A stretch of DNA of 64,000 nt from Acidobacteriaceae bacterium (GTDB taxonomy: Bacteria > Acidobacteriota > Terriglobia > Terriglobales > Acidobacteriaceae). Every line of letters starts with the position of its first letter. The stretch's first letter is position 1. The translations under genes and the position numbers were made by a program. Positions 43,586-64,000 of this stretch are shown here, piece after piece. The stretch covers positions 121,983-185,982 of the forward strand of contig PMHV01000059.1 of assembly GCA_003156805.1 (NCBI GenBank), written 5' to 3'. The notes beneath the pieces are model-generated. The model saw nothing but the letters and a program-made list of their open reading frames with translations, ran no database searches and was not told the DNA's origin.

Positions 43586-46471
43586 ATGAACATTGGCAAT
43601 CAGGTATCTCGTTCGCGAGGCAAAATCAGCGCGGCAAAAACCACGGCTTCCGTGGTGGTGGCTTTGTGTGTCCTGGCCTTCGGGTTATGCCTGCCGACCA
43701 GTACTTTTGGGTCGAAAATCCGCTCCAAAGCTGCGCCGCAAATCAGCGGCACCGTCAACATCTATCCGGCGGGCCTGGCCTTCTTCGACCAACTGGTGAA
43801 CACGATGAGTCCTGCCGAAGCCGTGACCCTGGTCAACAACGGCGCCACCGCGTTGAGCATTACCAAGATCGCGGTCACCGCCGGTTTCTCACAGACCAAT
43901 AATTGCAAAACCTCGGTGGCAGCCGGCGCCGCGTGCACGATCACAATTCACTTCAAGCCCAGCTCTGCGGCGGTGCATACGGGAAGCTTGTCGGTGACCG
44001 ATAGCGCTTCCGGCAGTCCGCAAATTATCAGCCTGCAAGGCACCGGCGTCACCAATGCGATCAGCTTTATTCCCTCCAGCCTCAACCTTGAAACTTGGCC
44101 CGTGGGTTCGGCCGGAGGCCCGGTGTCGGCTACCGTCACCAACATCAGCGGAAGCCCGGTCACCATCAGCAGCATCGTGGCGACCGGCGATTTCACCGAG
44201 ACCAATAGCTGCACCAGTCCGCTTTCGCCTTCTTCCGGTACTGCCTGCCGCATCGACGTTACGTTCAAACCTTCCGCCGGCGGAACCAGAACCGGCGCCG
44301 TCACCATCACGGACAGCGCCCCCGGCAGTCCGCACGTGCTCAATCTCACTGGAGTCGGCGGCGTTTCGAACGTAGCCTTCTCACCGGCCACTCTGGCGTT
44401 CGGAAACACCAATCTGGGCAAGACGAGCGCCACGAAGAATGTGACCGTTACCAACAACAACACCGCGCCCATCACCTTTATCAGCATCGTCGGCGACGGC
44501 GACTACACCGAGAGCAACACCTGCGGCACTTCGTTGAATGCCGGAGCCACCTGCACCGTCACCGTAAGCTTTTCTCCCACAGCCGCGGGCAAACGGTCGG
44601 GCCGCGTGACCTTCAGCGATACCGATACGTCCAACCTGCAGACTTTGACTCTATCGGGAGTGGGGGTGGTTCCCACCAGCACAGTGGCCATCAGCCCGGG
44701 GAACGCTACGCTGACTTCGCAGCAAACCGAACAGTACTCGGCAACGATCAGTGGAGCGTCCAGCGACGCCATCACCTGGGCCGTCGATGGAGTGACCGGA
44801 GGCAACGCGACGGTCGGCAAGATCTCCAAGATCGGCGTCTACACCCCTCCCACCACCGCCGGACGCCACGCCATCAAAGCCACCAGCACTGCCGATTCCA
44901 CGCAGATGGCAATTGCCTTTGCTTACGTCACCAATTACGCGGGCACGTTCACCTATCACAACGACACCATGCGTACCGGGCAGAACTTGAACGAAACGGT
45001 TCTCACGCCGGGTAACGTGAACTCGACCCAGTTCGGCAAAGTATTCTCGTTTCCTGTGGATGGCAAAGTCTACGCCCAGCCGCTCTATGTTCCCAACGTC
45101 GCCATTCCCAGCCAGGGCACCCATAACGTCGTCTATGTGGCCACTGAACATGACAGCGTTTTCGCCTTTGATGCCGATAACCTCGTCACTGCGCCGCTCT
45201 GGCAGACCAGCTTCATCAATCCCCCTGACGGCGTCACCACAATTGCCATCGGCACTACCGGTACCGAGGATATTACCTGCGACAGCATGTCGCCCGAGGT
45301 TGGCATTACCGGGACCCCGGTCATCGATCCAACTACCAACACCATGTACCTCGTGGTGCGGACGAAAGAAGTCAGCGGCCCGACCACCAACTTCGTCCAG
45401 CGGCTGCACGCGATCGACATCACCACCGGCGCGGAGAAGCCAAACAGTCCAATGGTGATTCAGGCCTCGGTTCCCGGCAACGGAACCGGCAACGATGGCA
45501 ACGGCAACGTCGCTTTCGATCCGCTCAACGAAAACCAGCGTTCCGGCCTCCTGCTGCTGAATGGCACCCTCTACATAGCATGGGCTTCCTTCTGCGATCC
45601 TCCCGTTTATCACGGGTGGGTGATGAGCTATGACGAAGCCTCCTTGCAGCAGCTCTCGGTATTCAATACCACGCCCAACGGCTGGGCTGGAGGCATCTGG
45701 AACGCCGGCGACGCTCCCGCCGCCGACGCCAGCGGCAATATCTACGTCATCACCGGCAACGGCACATTCGACGCCAATTTCGGAGGCTCCGACTACGCCG
45801 ACAGTATTCTGAAACTCTCCACGACTGGTGGCGCTCTCTCTCTGGCCGATTACTTTACCCCCTACAACCAGTATTTCCTGGTTGCGCCCGACAAGGATCT
45901 CGGTTCCAGCGGAGTCACGCTGATTCCGGATCAAACCTCTGGCCCTACCCATCTGTTATTCGGGGGCGGCAAGAGTGGCAATATCTATTTGGTGAATCGC
46001 GACAGCATGGGCGAGTACGACTCTTCCAGCGATCAGAACCAACAGACGCTGGTTCATGGCGCGGGCGGTCCCACCTGGAATGGCCTCTGGCCCAAAGGCG
46101 CATATTGGCAGAACCAGATCTACTACGTCGGTACCGGTGACGTGCCCAAGGCCTTCCGCCTGTACAACGGGCTGCTCTCCCCGGCTCCGATCTCCGAAGG
46201 CAACTTCACCTTCCAATATCCCGGCGGGCTGCCTGCGATTTCCTCCAACGGAAGCTCCAACGGCATCGTGTGGCTGGTCTGGGAGGCGACGCCGGTCCAG
46301 GCGGAGACCGTTCTTTATGCCTTCGAAGCCGATAACCTCAGCGTACAACTCTATAACAGCACCGGAACCACAACCGGCCTCGGAGTTCAGTTCGGCATCC
46401 CGACGGTAGCCAATGGCAAGGTCTATGTCGGTACTGTCAGCGAACTCGATGTCTACGGACTTCTCCCCTGA
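43586..46471 (+). CDS. secreted anchor-D repeat / PQQ-like beta-propeller protein
   Basis: 961 residues, CGAGGA before the ATG. Signal segment (A-S-V-V-V-A-L-C-V-L-A-F-G-L-C-L). Three choice-of-anchor-D repeats (~55-370; theme F-x-x-T-N-[NS]-C-x-x-x-[VLS] and S-G-S-P-Q-[IV]-x-x-L), one Ig-like unit (~375-455), then ~500 residues of beta-propeller with Y-V-A-T-E-H-D-S-V-F-A-F-D-A-D, Y-L-V-V-R-T-K, I-Y-V-I-T-G-N-G-T-F and I-Y-L-V-N-R-D. The blades resemble the quinoprotein (PQQ-like) fold. I do not see a full set of dehydrogenase active-site residues, so a binding or scaffolding role is as likely as an enzyme. The gene pairs with the phosphoesterase (38-bp gap) and precedes a strong terminator. 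Confidence 0.85.
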   Translation: MNIGNQVSRSRGKISAAKTTASVVVALCVLAFGLCLPTSTFGSKIRSKAAPQISGTVNIYPAGLAFFDQLVNTMSPAEAVTLVNNGATALSITKIAVTAGFSQTNNCKTSVAAGAACTITIHFKPSSAAVHTGSLSVTDSASGSPQIISLQGTGVTNAISFIPSSLNLETWPVGSAGGPVSATVTNISGSPVTISSIVATGDFTETNSCTSPLSPSSGTACRIDVTFKPSAGGTRTGAVTITDSAPGSPHVLNLTGVGGVSNVAFSPATLAFGNTNLGKTSATKNVTVTNNNTAPITFISIVGDGDYTESNTCGTSLNAGATCTVTVSFSPTAAGKRSGRVTFSDTDTSNLQTLTLSGVGVVPTSTVAISPGNATLTSQQTEQYSATISGASSDAITWAVDGVTGGNATVGKISKIGVYTPPTTAGRHAIKATSTADSTQMAIAFAYVTNYAGTFTYHNDTMRTGQNLNETVLTPGNVNSTQFGKVFSFPVDGKVYAQPLYVPNVAIPSQGTHNVVYVATEHDSVFAFDADNLVTAPLWQTSFINPPDGVTTIAIGTTGTEDITCDSMSPEVGITGTPVIDPTTNTMYLVVRTKEVSGPTTNFVQRLHAIDITTGAEKPNSPMVIQASVPGNGTGNDGNGNVAFDPLNENQRSGLLLLNGTLYIAWASFCDPPVYHGWVMSYDEASLQQLSVFNTTPNGWAGGIWNAGDAPAADASGNIYVITGNGTFDANFGGSDYADSILKLSTTGGALSLADYFTPYNQYFLVAPDKDLGSSGVTLIPDQTSGPTHLLFGGGKSGNIYLVNRDSMGEYDSSSDQNQQTLVHGAGGPTWNGLWPKGAYWQNQIYYVGTGDVPKAFRLYNGLLSPAPISEGNFTFQYPGGLPAISSNGSSNGIVWLVWEATPVQAETVLYAFEADNLSVQLYNSTGTTTGLGVQFGIPTVANGKVYVGTVSELDVYGLLP

Positions 46472-59392: not shown

Positions 59393-61054
59393 TTGACGGT
59401 TGCTTTTTTCGTAATCTTTTTTCTGTCGCTGCTGTGCTCTTTCGTCCTGACCCGCTCGGTGCGCGACAAGGCCACCAAGCGCGCTTGGGTAGCCATTCCT
59501 TCCGATGGAAGACATCTCCACACCAAGCCGTTGCCCCGCCTGGGTGGAGTCGCAATTTTCATTTCGTTTTCGTTGAGCCTGGTGGCTGCGGCCGTCATGG
59601 CTTTCTGGAACAAAGAACTGCACTCCGCGCTGTCTCTCAAACCACTGTTGACCATCCTCGCGCCCGCTTCGCTGATATTTCTCCTGGGAGTTTATGACGA
59701 CCTTCATGGCGTGGGCCCCTACTTCAAGTTCGCGGTTCAAGGCATTGCCGCTACCATGCTGTTCGCCGGCGGCCTCCGGATTCTTGACGTTCCGGTATTG
59801 TTCGGGGCGCACCGCCTGCCTTGGTTTTTAGGCTTGCCGCTGACCATCCTGTGGGTCGTGGCCATCACCAATGCGTTCAACTTGATCGACGGACTGGACG
59901 GCCTGGCGGCGGGTTCGGCTTTGTTCTCGACGCTGGTGGCATTTGCGGTCGCACTGGTGAACGGCTATGCGCTAGTCACCGTGATGACCATCGCTCTGGC
60001 CGGCGCTATCCTCGGTTTTCTGCGCTACAATTTCAATCCGGCCACGATCTTTCTCGGAGATTCCGGTAGTCTGTTTATCGGATTTCTTCTCAGCGCTTTG
60101 GCGCTGGCTGGCGCGCAGAAGGCGCCGACCATCGTTGCCGTCGCCATTCCCGTAGTTTCCTTCGGCCTGCCGATTCTGGAGACATCGCTTTCCATTCTGC
60201 GCCGTTGGATCAGCGGCCGCCCGGTATTCACCGCCGACCGCGAACATATCCATCACAAACTTTTGCAGCACGGTCTCACGCACCGCCAGGTCGTCATCGT
60301 GCTTTACGGCGTCTCCGCCGTCTTCGCGCTTCTCAGTCTGTTCTTGCTTTGGCCCACCGGTAGTTCGCTGGGCTTGGTGTTGGCAGTCCTCGGCACCGGT
60401 ATCTGGATTGGCGTGCAGCGCCTGGGCTATCTCGAGCTTGGCGAGTTGGCTCGCATCGCCCAGCGCACCCTCGAACAGCGGCAGATTTTCATCAACAACC
60501 TCGCCATTCGCCGCGCCACCCAGGAACTGAAGGTGGTTCGTGATTACGAACAGATCTGGCGAATCCTGGAGGCAGCTTTCAGCTCCAATGATTTTGACGG
60601 GCTCGATGTCAAAGTCAAACTCTTTCCCGGCGAATATTTTCCTTTTGCCGGCGAATCTGCCGCCCAGCAGCGCCGCAGCGATCTTTCCTTTCACTGGGGA
60701 AAAAACCTCGGAGCAAAGAACGCCGGAGCAATGAATGCCGCAGCTATGACTGTCGAAGCAAAGAACGCCGGAGCAAAGACTGTCGGGGAAAAGCCTGGCG
60801 CATCGATGTCGCTTGAGGGCTTTCCCGTCTGGGCGCTCTCGTTCGATCTGGTCAGCACCTCCAATCGCCGGCGTGGCTCGCTGGTGCTGCACCGTCTATG
60901 CTCGCGCCCGGACCTGCAACTGGATATCAATCTGTTAACTTCAGCCTTCCCCATCGCACTCGCCGACGCGCTGGATCGCACTCTTCAGCCAGTAGTGGAA
61001 TTTATTCCGCGCACCGGAGAAGATCACGGCTTCATCGCCGCGCAAGCGGGATAG
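59393..61054 (+). CDS. WecA/TagO/MraY-type polyprenyl-phosphate sugar-1-phosphate transferase with long C-terminal extension
   Basis: 553 residues. TTG start with AAGGGGG 8 bases before it. PNPT core ~1-340: about 10 membrane helices, P-L-P-R-L-G-G, G-V-Y-D-D-L-H-G (Asp pair), N-A-F-N-L-I-D-G-L-D-G-L-A, F-L-G-D-S-G-S and the cytoplasmic H-I-H-H-K-L-L. It links a sugar-1-phosphate to undecaprenyl phosphate. The last ~200 residues (from L-A-R-I-A-Q-R-T-L-E-Q-R) are soluble, helical at first, of unknown function, and carry the 15-bp repeat block at ~440-469. Usual family members end near residue 350. Confidence 0.9.
   Translation: MTVAFFVIFFLSLLCSFVLTRSVRDKATKRAWVAIPSDGRHLHTKPLPRLGGVAIFISFSLSLVAAAVMAFWNKELHSALSLKPLLTILAPASLIFLLGVYDDLHGVGPYFKFAVQGIAATMLFAGGLRILDVPVLFGAHRLPWFLGLPLTILWVVAITNAFNLIDGLDGLAAGSALFSTLVAFAVALVNGYALVTVMTIALAGAILGFLRYNFNPATIFLGDSGSLFIGFLLSALALAGAQKAPTIVAVAIPVVSFGLPILETSLSILRRWISGRPVFTADREHIHHKLLQHGLTHRQVVIVLYGVSAVFALLSLFLLWPTGSSLGLVLAVLGTGIWIGVQRLGYLELGELARIAQRTLEQRQIFINNLAIRRATQELKVVRDYEQIWRILEAAFSSNDFDGLDVKVKLFPGEYFPFAGESAAQQRRSDLSFHWGKNLGAKNAGAMNAAAMTVEAKNAGAKTVGEKPGASMSLEGFPVWALSFDLVSTSNRRRGSLVLHRLCSRPDLQLDINLLTSAFPIALADALDRTLQPVVEFIPRTGEDHGFIAAQAG
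60710..60799 (+). repeat. six-unit 15-bp repeat in the transferase C-terminal extension
   Basis: GGAGCAAAGAACGCC and five variants follow in exact 15-bp steps (60710, 60725, 60740, 60755, 60770, 60785). They encode G-A-K-N-A, G-A-M-N-A, A-A-M-T-V, E-A-K-N-A, G-A-K-T-V and G-E-K-P-G. Confidence 0.95.
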
Positions 61055-61419
61055 CGCCGCCCAGGGAATCGCTGATTAGGTTTCGCAATCCCAACTTTGT
61101 CATCCCAGGTTTGTCATTCTGAGCGAAGCGAAGAATCCCTGTGCACGCCCTCGCCACCCGGCCCCGCAAGGCACTCCTGTCAGCGGCCGCGCAGCTTCGA
61201 TTTCTTTCCTGCTGGAACCTGTTCAGAGAGCCGCTGGCGGATCACAAACTGCTCACACTCATCGATGGGAATTGACAGCGAGGCTGGCAGAGCTTCGTTC
61301 GCCGACGTTCGTTCGGCTCTTCAGAAAAATATCGGGTCACAAACCAAACAAGCCTCAGCGCTCATCCGGCACTTAACCGGATGGCACGAGGCTTAATCTC
61401 TAAGAGGGAGGGTTGAAAG
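61055..61419. other. 365-bp intergenic region without a credible gene
   Basis: A frame at 61097-61396 is open but its start is produced by a dispersed repeat (see next entry) and the rest lacks family similarity. ATCCGG (61364-61369) and CCGGAT (61377-61382) form a small inverted repeat just after the pqqA gene on the - strand, a weak terminator candidate. Confidence 0.55.
61096..61140. repeat. dispersed 'HSERSEES'-type repeat with short tandem copies
   Basis: The core GTCATTCTGAGCGAAGCG (from 61113), followed by AAGAATCC, is a sequence found between genes in many bacteria, known for spurious peptides reading H-S-E-R-S-E-E-S. Here it is preceded by a 14-bp partial tandem copy (TTTGTCATCCCAGG at 61096-61109, then TTTGTCATTCTGAG). 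Confidence 0.75.
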
Positions 61420-61497
61420 TTACAGTTTCGCGCTGGCGTAAGAGTTGATCTCGCAATTCAAGCAAACTTCTTCAAAGGCGGGTGCTGTCCACTGCAT
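61420..61497 (-). CDS. pqqA: PqqA-type pyrroloquinoline quinone precursor peptide
   Basis: 25-codon gene. The peptide starts M-Q-W-T-A-P-A-F-E-E and ends C-E16-I-N-S-Y20-A-S-A-K-L. The W-T-x-P-x-F-x-E start and the Glu/Tyr pair four residues apart (E-x-x-x-Y) are the hallmarks of PqqA, whose Glu and Tyr are fused by PqqE to make PQQ. GGGGGA lies 4 bases before the ATG on this strand, a strong ribosome site. A longer in-frame ATG at 61725 has no similarity upstream of this Met. No pqqB, C, D or E gene is in the window, so this is an orphan copy or the maturation genes are elsewhere. An unrelated RiPP precursor is the alternative. Confidence 0.82.
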   Translation of the reverse strand: MQWTAPAFEEVCLNCEINSYASAKL

Positions 61498-61786
61498 GAG
61501 TTCCCCCAATCGGCTGGAGTAACTTCCTCCAAACCTACAAGCAAAGAATAACTCAGCCTTTCCCGGAATGCAATAGCCAGACTTCAGAGAATCCCCAAGC
61601 CCCGAAACCCTTGAAGGACAAGGCTTTCGTCCCTCACGCCGGGTTGCAAATTCTTGCACACCCTCTCGAAAGTATCGCCTCGCACTCGATCCGCGCTTTT
61701 CCACAGCGCGAACCAGTGCGGCCACTTACTCTCGTCGCGCCAACTATTTACCTTTCCCGCTGGCATGGAAGCGAGGATTCGGCCTC

Positions 61787-62752
61787 ATGTTTAGCGAGAG
61801 AACGTCTAGCAACACAATCTTTAGCAAGACAACGCTTAGCAAGACAAAGCTTAGCAAGAAAAAGTTTGGCAAGACCGTCTACGGCGGCACCTTCAAAGAC
61901 GTAAACTTTGTTCCTTTGCAGTTGGCCGCCTTTTGCGTCCAGTGTGAACTGATCGGCGCCAACGCCACTCCGCACTGTCTCGCGTGCGGCAGTCCAGCGT
62001 TGCTGAGTTTGTCGCGAGTTCTCGGCGGCTCGCTGAAACATCAGCAGACCGCGCATCTCATCACCGACTCCGAACTCGATAGGCTCGTCCGCGATCTGTT
62101 GCGCACCGTGCCCTCGCCCGACGAAGTCTCCGCCTCCGACCATCACTTCCGTGTGCCTTCGCTTGCCTTGCGCACTCAGCTCCGCGTCGCCAATGCCGCA
62201 CATCCAGCGTCGGGCTTTCATGCCGTCCACCTGACCGAAGAAGATTTCCATCCCGCCGAACTCAACCTTGAACCCGCCATCAGCGCTATCACCGAACGCG
62301 CCCGGCACCTCACCGGAGCCACCGGCGCCGCCATCGCCCTGCGCCGCGGCGAAGAGATCGTCTGCCGCGCTCGCTCCGGCCGCACTGCTCCCGATCTTGG
62401 CGTCCGCCTGCAAACCGACGCCGGCATTTCCGCCGAGTGCGTCCGCACCGGCGAAGTCATGTTGTGCCACGACGCCGAACGCAACCCGCGCGTCGATTTA
62501 GCCAGTTGCCGCCGCCTGGGAGTCCGCTCCATCCTCGTCTCTCCCCTGCGTCATTTCCGGCGCACGCTCGGCGTTTTCGAAGTATTGTCGTGCTCGCCTT
62601 CCGCCTTCGATCAAACCGATGTTGCCACCATGCAGCTTCTCTCCGGCCTCATGGTCGCCGCCATCGCCCGCATCTCCAGCCTGCACACTGCTCACCAACT
62701 GCAACGCGCCCACCAAACGGCAAACCGCCAACTGGCTGCCGAAAAATCCTGA
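61787..62752 (+). CDS. GAF-domain protein with N-terminal zinc-ribbon-like Cys pairs
   Basis: 321 residues. Residues 1-32 are the repeat-encoded Ser/Lys/Thr tail. A Cys pattern C-V-Q-C-(x9)-C-L-A-C (~residues 49-63) looks like a small zinc ribbon. The GAF domain spans ~165-305: A-T-G-A-A-I-A-L-R-R-G-E-E-I-V-C-R-A-R-S-G, G-I-S-A-E-C-V-R-T-G, V-R-S-I-L-V-S-P-L and L-G-V-F-E-V-L. No output domain is seen, so it may bind a small ligand or a partner. The 3' neighbour carries a second GAF of the same subtype (V-R-S-I-L theme), so the two are likely related and linked in function. Confidence 0.8.
   Translation: MFSERTSSNTIFSKTTLSKTKLSKKKFGKTVYGGTFKDVNFVPLQLAAFCVQCELIGANATPHCLACGSPALLSLSRVLGGSLKHQQTAHLITDSELDRLVRDLLRTVPSPDEVSASDHHFRVPSLALRTQLRVANAAHPASGFHAVHLTEEDFHPAELNLEPAISAITERARHLTGATGAAIALRRGEEIVCRARSGRTAPDLGVRLQTDAGISAECVRTGEVMLCHDAERNPRVDLASCRRLGVRSILVSPLRHFRRTLGVFEVLSCSPSAFDQTDVATMQLLSGLMVAAIARISSLHTAHQLQRAHQTANRQLAAEKS
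61791..61880 (+). repeat. six-unit 15-bp repeat at the 5' end of the GAF gene
   Basis: TTAGCAAGACAAAGC and five variants in exact 15-bp steps (61791, 61806, 61821, 61836, 61851, 61866; theme TTAGCAAGACAAxGC). Encodes S-x-T-x-L/S-x-K units, starting at the second codon of the GAF protein. Confidence 0.95.
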
Positions 62753-62975: not shown

Positions 62976-64000
62976 ATGATCTCCGGATTGCAGTCCGATC
63001 GCCGTCCCCGCCGTCGCGTGCGGCACAAGGTGCACGCTCCCGCCTATGCCAGCTTCAGCGGCGGCTCACAGAGCATCATGCTCGAGTTGAACGAGATTCT
63101 CGACATCAGTGAAGACGGCGTGAAGATCCAGTGCTCCTCGCCCATGGAAGCGGATCGATCCGTCGAGTTGTGCCTGGACCTCGCTGAATCCAGCGGCCAG
63201 ATTCACACCACCGGCCAGGTCGTTTGGTCCGACGGCGCCGGTCGCGTTGGCCTGCGCTTGCCCAACTTGGCCGATGCTCCACTGCGCCGTCTGCGCGAGT
63301 GGCTGTTTTTGAATGCGATGGTGGCCGCGGCCAATGCTGGCTCCTTCGTCAATGTCACGCCGCAACCGTCGTCGGAAGCCCCGGCGGTGAGGCCGAATTT
63401 CACCGACACGCTTACCGCGGTCTCCGCCGTGCAGAGAGAAGCCGAATCGCTGGGGTCGAGTCTCGATGCGCTGCTTGCGTTGGTCGCTTCTCGTGCGCAG
63501 ACCCTGCTCCAGGCTTCGGGTGCGGCCATTGCCTTAGCCGAGGAAGCCTTGATCGAAGCAGCCATGATCGAAACAGCCATGGCCGAAGCGGCAATGGAAG
63601 GAGGAGAAACGACCGAAGCAGCCATGGCCGAACCAGCCGCAGCCGCCGCCGGCGAGGCAGCCCAACCGCTGGTTGCAACTATGATTTGCCGCGCCAGCGC
63701 CGGCCCCAGCGCGCCGCCGGCCGGAGCCAGACTGCAAGTGGGCTTGGGTTTTTCCGGCGCATGCGTTCGCACCGGACTTCCCTTGCGCTGCGATGATGCC
63801 GCCACTGATCTGCGCGTCGATCGCGAAAGCTGTCGTGTTCTCGGCATCCGCTCCATCCTTGCCATTCCGCTGCGCATTGGCGAAAAGGTGATCGGTCTGC
63901 TCGAGGTCTTTTCTGACCAGCCTTCCAGATTTGCGGAAAACGACAGCGCCGCCATCCTGCAGCGCCTCGCCGAAACGATCCTGTCCGCGGTCCAACGCTC
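62976..64000 (+). CDS. PilZ-GAF protein (3' truncated by window end)
   Basis: 341 codons visible, no stop before the window end. Residues ~8-110 form a PilZ domain: basic R-R-P-R-R-R-V-R-H-K-V (RxxxR part of the c-di-GMP site) and D-I-S-E-D-G-V-K-I ([DN]-x-S-x-x-G). Residues ~150-341 form a GAF domain: A-S-G-A-A-I-A-L, then a 40-residue repeat insertion, then M-I-C-R-A-S-A-G, F-S-G-A-C-V-R-T-G and I-R-S-I-L-A-I-P-L. c-di-GMP-binding proteins often control EPS production post-translationally, so this may be the regulator of the locus. The ATG at 62976 has no clear ribosome site; the 223-bp gap before it has no other gene. Confidence 0.85.
   Translation, partial: MISGLQSDRRPRRRVRHKVHAPAYASFSGGSQSIMLELNEILDISEDGVKIQCSSPMEADRSVELCLDLAESSGQIHTTGQVVWSDGAGRVGLRLPNLADAPLRRLREWLFLNAMVAAANAGSFVNVTPQPSSEAPAVRPNFTDTLTAVSAVQREAESLGSSLDALLALVASRAQTLLQASGAAIALAEEALIEAAMIETAMAEAAMEGGETTEAAMAEPAAAAAGEAAQPLVATMICRASAGPSAPPAGARLQVGLGFSGACVRTGLPLRCDDAATDLRVDRESCRVLGIRSILAIPLRIGEKVIGLLEVFSDQPSRFAENDSAAILQRLAETILSAVQR
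63537..63656 (+). repeat. eight-unit 15-bp repeat inside the PilZ-GAF gene
   Basis: Units start every 15 bp from 63537; examples ATCGAAGCAGCCATG (63552), ATCGAAACAGCCATG (63567), ACCGAAGCAGCCATG (63612). They encode I/A/T-E-A/T-A-M pentapeptides. They interrupt the GAF domain between A-I-A-L and M-I-C-R-A, where the neighbouring GAF protein has only five residues. Confidence 0.95.

Follow-up and report, generated by a model that had tools for sequence, protein, structure and literature searches.

Unlinked and multicopy pqqA genes have already been published for methylotrophs, so the arrangement described here is of a known kind. In the alphaproteobacterium Methylosinus trichosporium OB3b, an unannotated pqqA was found by hand, away from pqqBCDE, and the accessible text of that report gives expression values of 11857 and 13927 for the unlinked gene versus 161 to 372 for pqqB, pqqC/D, and pqqE (PMC3615186). 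According to the available excerpt of a second paper, Methylophilaceae carry 3 to 12 copies of pqqA, mostly with one enzyme set (PMC4109929). At the protein level, PqqA is expressed about 20-fold above, for example, PqqC or PqqE, per earlier work cited in the excerpt of PMC2294125. Searches for PQQ producers can be operon based, as in the use of cblaster with PqqA-F in the accessible part of PMC12124388, which also notes that the enzymes of PQQ biosynthesis are absent from E. coli.

How does the present locus compare? Like the gene of OB3b, it is unannotated and unlinked to pqqBCDE. It differs in that OB3b is an alphaproteobacterium for whose pqqA the accessible text gives neither genus-wide synteny nor a leader hairpin (PMC3615186). 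As in the Methylophilaceae, pqqA is not tied one-to-one to pqqBCDE, but a single pqqA was found in the genome studied here; some of its family relatives resemble the multicopy case. What is new is a promoter-like element together with a leader hairpin of variable sequence, weak in the genome studied here but enriched among its close relatives. The genus in question appears to be Candidatus Sulfotelmatobacter with allied MAGs, and no literature on PQQ in Sulfotelmatobacter was found among open-licence papers.

The pqqA gene and its surroundings

The DNA analyzed, referred to here as the window, is a stretch of 64,000 nucleotides (contig C13:121983-185982) from a 5.03-Mb draft genome of 75 contigs with 95% completeness. 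The original prediction, made from these letters alone, had called a 25-codon gene on the minus strand at 61420-61497, and its position, strand, and length proved exact: the ATG is at 61497, and the stop codon that follows the 25 codons ends at 61420. The encoded peptide is MQWTAPAFEEVCLNCEINSYASAKL. It had been described as PqqA-type with a Glu16/Tyr20 pair, and both residues are indeed present, within a C-E-I-N-S-Y core whose E-x3-Y spacing is that of the cross-link and which is common to most family relatives seen here. The peptide also has the length and the W-x4-F start of known PqqA, and it passes both family cut-offs, scoring 29.7 bits against the NCBIfam equivalog TIGR02107 (cut-off 20, E 4e-7) and 24.3 bits against Pfam PF08042 (cut-off 21.1, E 3.4e-4 in a whole-genome search). 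PF08042 found no match in any of 14 control genomes. A sequence search of the PDB with the peptide returned no match.

Why might the gene be missed? The mechanical open reading frame call at this place is a longer GTG frame of 101 amino acids (61420-61725) that contains pqqA, so the short gene would be hidden. The peptide conserved among relatives starts at the pqqA ATG, 61497 in the window, in 36 of 36 loci.

The gene lies between two conserved neighbors, both on the plus strand. A wecA-like glycosyl transferase of family 4 (59393..61054; PF00953) is convergent with pqqA, and a GAF-domain protein (61787..62752; PF13185 and PF01590) is divergent from it. After pqqA, between the two convergent genes, folding energy marks a terminator-like hairpin on the minus strand (61349..61395). 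The 91-nt stretch containing it has a minimum free energy of -34.9 kcal/mol and a z of -5.0; the hairpin sequence is not conserved in an alignment of close relatives, and a terminator scan made no call at the hairpin or elsewhere there. An Rfam scan of 60900-62000 yielded nothing at gathering scores, and the neighboring frame at 63203-63955 has no domain match. No dedicated maturase adjoins pqqA among the neighbors tested, namely, the GAF, wecA-like, SLBB export, and glycosyltransferase proteins.

The PQQ enzymes in the genome and in relatives

Where, then, are the enzymes? The genome encodes pqqB, pqqC, pqqD, and pqqE at C46:130471-134585, on a contig other than that of pqqA and at a distance of at least about 289 kb as reckoned from the draft contigs. 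All four products exceed the NCBIfam cut-offs (PqqB 334.7, PqqC 325.9, PqqD 64.6, and PqqE 533.2 bits). None of them is encoded near the window gene; all PqqB, PqqC, and PqqE matches over cut-off, and all PqqD matches, lie elsewhere. Conversely, the 18-kb stretch of C46 around the enzyme genes yielded no pqqA. The window pqqA thus does not adjoin pqqB, directly upstream of which it would stand in a pqqABCDE operon. The label of orphan given by the original prediction therefore holds for the neighborhood but not for the genome, and its suggestion that the peptide feeds a distant maturase agrees with the enzyme set on C46. The prediction had also named what would count against it, a genome devoid of PqqE and PqqD and a peptide that is not conserved in relatives; PqqE and PqqD are both present, and the peptide is conserved. 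Within the enzyme cluster, a DUF433 gene (L012:8761-9033) occupies the opposite strand inside the roughly 940 bp that separate pqqD from pqqE.

PqqF is not seen above cut-off in this genome (best score 54 bits, versus a cut-off of 320). The PQQ dehydrogenase propeller family is represented by five loci (10 matches on five contigs). The window itself had been thought to encode a PQQ-like propeller at 43.6 kb; the large protein at 43586-46471 instead matches ASH/HYDIN/DUF1573 Ig-type domains, and at E<=0.001 it hits none of the PQQ families.

With these parts, the window gene would be translated as a 25-residue precursor, PqqD would present it to PqqE, and PqqE would link Glu16 with Tyr20. The remaining steps to PQQ, for use by the quinoprotein dehydrogenases of the cell, would fall to peptidases, PqqB, and PqqC.

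Profile searches of 150 genomes of the family show how closely the peptide keeps company with the enzymes. PqqA was found with TIGR02107 in 39 of them (37 over cut-off), PqqC over cut-off in 43, and PqqE in 40. PqqC is above cut-off in 37 of the 39 PqqA genomes; of the other two, one combines PqqE with a fragment of PqqC, and the other has a weak, 17-bit PqqA match. Six PqqC genomes have no TIGR02107 match. In five of these, pqqA was found in stretches around pqqC with an in-house profile, A1, built from 32 chosen peptides rather than all, the window's own included, which makes the E-values obtained with it in the genus partly circular. In the sixth (G071), the pqq genes are spread over different, partly short contigs. 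After this rescue, pqqA is present in 42 of 43 PqqC genomes, a one-sided figure because the rescue covered chosen loci, mostly from pqqC-positive genomes.

Within the genus, A1 detects pqqA in 40 of 45 genomes, including all 20 with a completeness of 90% or more and a contamination of 5% or less; of the 40 matches, the truncated one in G157 and the divergent one in G164 are weak. PqqC is found in 37 of 45 genomes and in 18/20 of the complete ones. Both genes occur in 35 genomes, and in none of the 35 do they share a contig. The mismatches (five genomes with pqqA and no pqqC, two with the reverse) may be assembly gaps, though completeness reaches 90% or more in two of the five.

Might the peptide instead be the substrate of another radical SAM RiPP system, with a product other than PQQ? 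The genome does hold two further PqqD-radical SAM pairs, on contigs C23 and C65, that could serve as examples. Their radical SAM proteins score 82 and 104 bits against PqqE, below the cut-off of 381, and the pairs are on contigs other than that of pqqA, beside genes resembling HprK-type kinases or ScmC (one likeness weak and below the NCBIfam cut-off, the other by P-loop inspection alone). The window peptide, for its part, passes the PqqA equivalog cut-off, and the presence of PqqA tracks that of PqqC across the 150 genomes with a Fisher p of 2e-26. Because of this strong co-occurrence, a RiPP of another kind, or a signal as the original prediction also allowed, is disfavored and must be considered highly improbable.

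A further idea was that the main copy resides elsewhere and the window gene merely adds to PQQ dosage as an extra copy. Precedents exist in relatives with extra copies, up to seven per genome, and in the 3 to 12 copies reported in the excerpt on Methylophilaceae (PMC4109929). In the window genome, however, no second PqqA was found with PF08042 (E<=0.001), TIGR02107 (E<=0.05), or A1 (E<=0.05), a result for which the draft state of 75 contigs at 95% completeness leaves some room for a second copy. Moreover, 30 of the 38 pqqC places located in the genus were searched, and none contains a pqqA scoring at least 12 bits; 26 of these 30 stretches extend to the first residue of pqqB. As no second PqqA was found, the dosage reading is unsupported, and we regard it as very unlikely. 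The whole is best explained by a genuine pqqA that is the only copy found in its genome, and we hold this with high confidence.

In the seven-copy relative (G045; L113-L119), each pqqA occupies a contig of its own. One copy directly precedes a PqqB gene, and that PqqB is on a contig other than that of pqqC.

Selection on the peptide and probable relocation of the gene

Selection on the peptide was gauged from the window and 35 named loci (L229-L263), the best 35 matches, whose peptides are 88 to 100% identical to that of the window; they were placed in the genus by similarity of peptide and neighbors, not locus by locus. The 36 loci comprise 35 distinct DNA forms encoding 13 peptides, and Met1, Trp3, Pro6, Glu16, and Tyr20 are invariant in 36/36. 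Over all pairs, single-base codon differences number 4211 synonymous and 479 not, for a crude dN/dS of about 0.03, a figure that ignores shared ancestry and drops codons with two or more differences.

The place of the gene is conserved as well. A wecA-like and/or GAF gene flanks pqqA in 39 of the 40 genus genomes that have it, and 39 of 42 genus matches are at this place (29/30 in one test set and 10/12 in the remainder). A decayed or chance frame without function, which a tiny frame inside a longer mechanical one might bring to mind, is refuted by this conservation of locus and by a peptide of such low dN/dS with Glu16 and Tyr20 invariant, and its probability is negligible.

Three matches lie elsewhere: the second copies of G006 and G179, and the single match of G164. 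This last is a divergent PqqA (A-E-C-T-A-Y; L223:2931-2996) just before a pqqB-like gene of 41% identity. G164 also carries a normal pqqC on another contig. In G143, the relocated pqqA is preceded, at about 204 bp, by a gene for a lactonase-type seven-bladed propeller (L112:6587-7807), which seems to lie between pqqA and the GAF gene.

Elsewhere in the family, pqqA is often 5 to 42 bp ahead of pqqB. Across 80 named loci, 38 share the wecA/GAF setting, namely, the 35 closest to that of the window plus three from other genera. In another 26, pqqB follows pqqA at about 5 to 42 bp, and one locus has a divergent pqqB. In eight, pqqA follows a secreted propeller-like gene by about 23 to 92 bp, and seven show none of these arrangements.

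How might the gene have come to leave the operon? Two relatives are informative. G014 has an intact pqqB-linked copy and an intact relocated copy. G086 has an intact relocated copy and, before pqqB, a decayed remnant (L146:5037-5075) that reads NREINSCASAKL, with deletions. These genomes point to duplication, relocation, and then loss of the linked copy, an order and direction that we infer from the sequences compared. The ancestor would have had pqqA immediately ahead of pqqB; a copy would have arisen between wecA and the GAF gene, and the pqqB-linked copy would subsequently have been lost.

The propeller-linked loci (L265, L270, L276, L285, L287, L288, L293, and L308) come from four genomes, five of them from one genome, and in each an extra pqqA copy is on the same strand as the gene upstream of it. 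The upstream genes are BNR-type or belong to a family without a Pfam match. A structural model of one such protein has a pLDDT of 51, and at this low confidence its best Foldseek matches, to quinohemoprotein alcohol dehydrogenases and BamB, are suggestive at most; a PDB sequence search with an alignment of the protein found nothing. Such proteins may be new quinoproteins, served by a precursor gene of their own.

Candidate control signals upstream of pqqA

What drives a pqqA that stands apart from its operon? The ribosome-binding site is GGGGGAA (61501..61507, minus strand), mostly conserved in close relatives, with GGGGGA ending 4 nt ahead of the ATG. The ribosome site had been called strong; it is plausible and conserved to that extent, but it is no perfect AGGAGG. 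Farther upstream is a promoter-like element, TTGCAT-N17-TATTCT (61545..61573, minus strand), put forward from a pattern in relatives. TTGNNN-N15-18-TANNNT occurs upstream of pqqA in 36/36 loci; three control windows have it in 1, 2, and 1 of 36. This pattern was picked after the alignment was viewed. A generic sigma-70 scan found nothing at the window pqqA.

Between the promoter-like element and the ribosome site, just after the putative promoter, simple hairpins are enriched. In an alignment-free test against dinucleotide shuffles, 25 of the 36 leaders reach p<=0.05, with a combined p of 9e-21 that treats related sequences as independent; five upstream control regions give 0 to 3 of 36. The window's own hairpin, TTGGAG-gaagtta-CTCCAG (61514..61532, minus strand), has six pairs and is not significant by itself (p 0.19). 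The same test gives 4/24 for pqqB-linked pqqA (24 of the 26 leaders, with L294 and L299 left out), 1/8 for propeller-linked pqqA, 1/11 for others, and 2/26 for genus pqqB. The hairpin looks specific to the genus because the relocated copies of other genera, counted among the 11 others, show it in 0/3.

The stem-loop sequence drifts between members of the genus while pairing is kept. In 33 of the 36 leaders (three with weak stems were dropped), there are 19 different inner 5-mers. When arms are swapped between leaders, pairing falls from 100% with own arms to 48%, a figure that is biased because the arms had been chosen for pairing. A DNA operator in place of an RNA hairpin was considered and rejected, since arm sequences differ widely between species. 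Two other approaches gave little or no signal: RNAalifold on a MAFFT alignment of the 36 leaders returned 0 pairs, and minimum-energy folding separates only weakly (mean z of -1.3 for genus leaders versus -0.8 for 23 pqqB-linked ones).

With its promoter-like element and leader hairpin, the relocated pqqA looks like a transcription unit of its own. A 5'-terminal stem-loop can stabilize a bacterial message. It is conceivable, and we offer it tentatively, that once outside the operon the pqqA of the genus acquired a structured leader of its own, in which a stem-loop at the putative 5' end of a very short mRNA would stabilize or regulate the precursor message independently of the PQQ enzymes. No literature on a stem-loop leader of pqqA was found among open-licence papers, as judged by title. 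Why would such a leader be useful? Each PQQ costs the cell one PqqA, whereas the enzymes act repeatedly. The likeliest benefit of relocation would be the separate, high expression of a consumed substrate, and a unit that has a promoter to itself and a stabilizing leader would be a natural route to a high supply of PqqA.

Nearly an entire genus of soil acidobacteria has this unlinked layout. Operon-based searches could miss or mis-score PQQ producers in which pqqA is tiny, unannotated, and unlinked. The relatives that have both copies, or a decayed remnant, offer a clear example of a substrate gene departing from its operon. Should the leader hairpin prove real, the matching of precursor supply to catalytic enzymes becomes testable.
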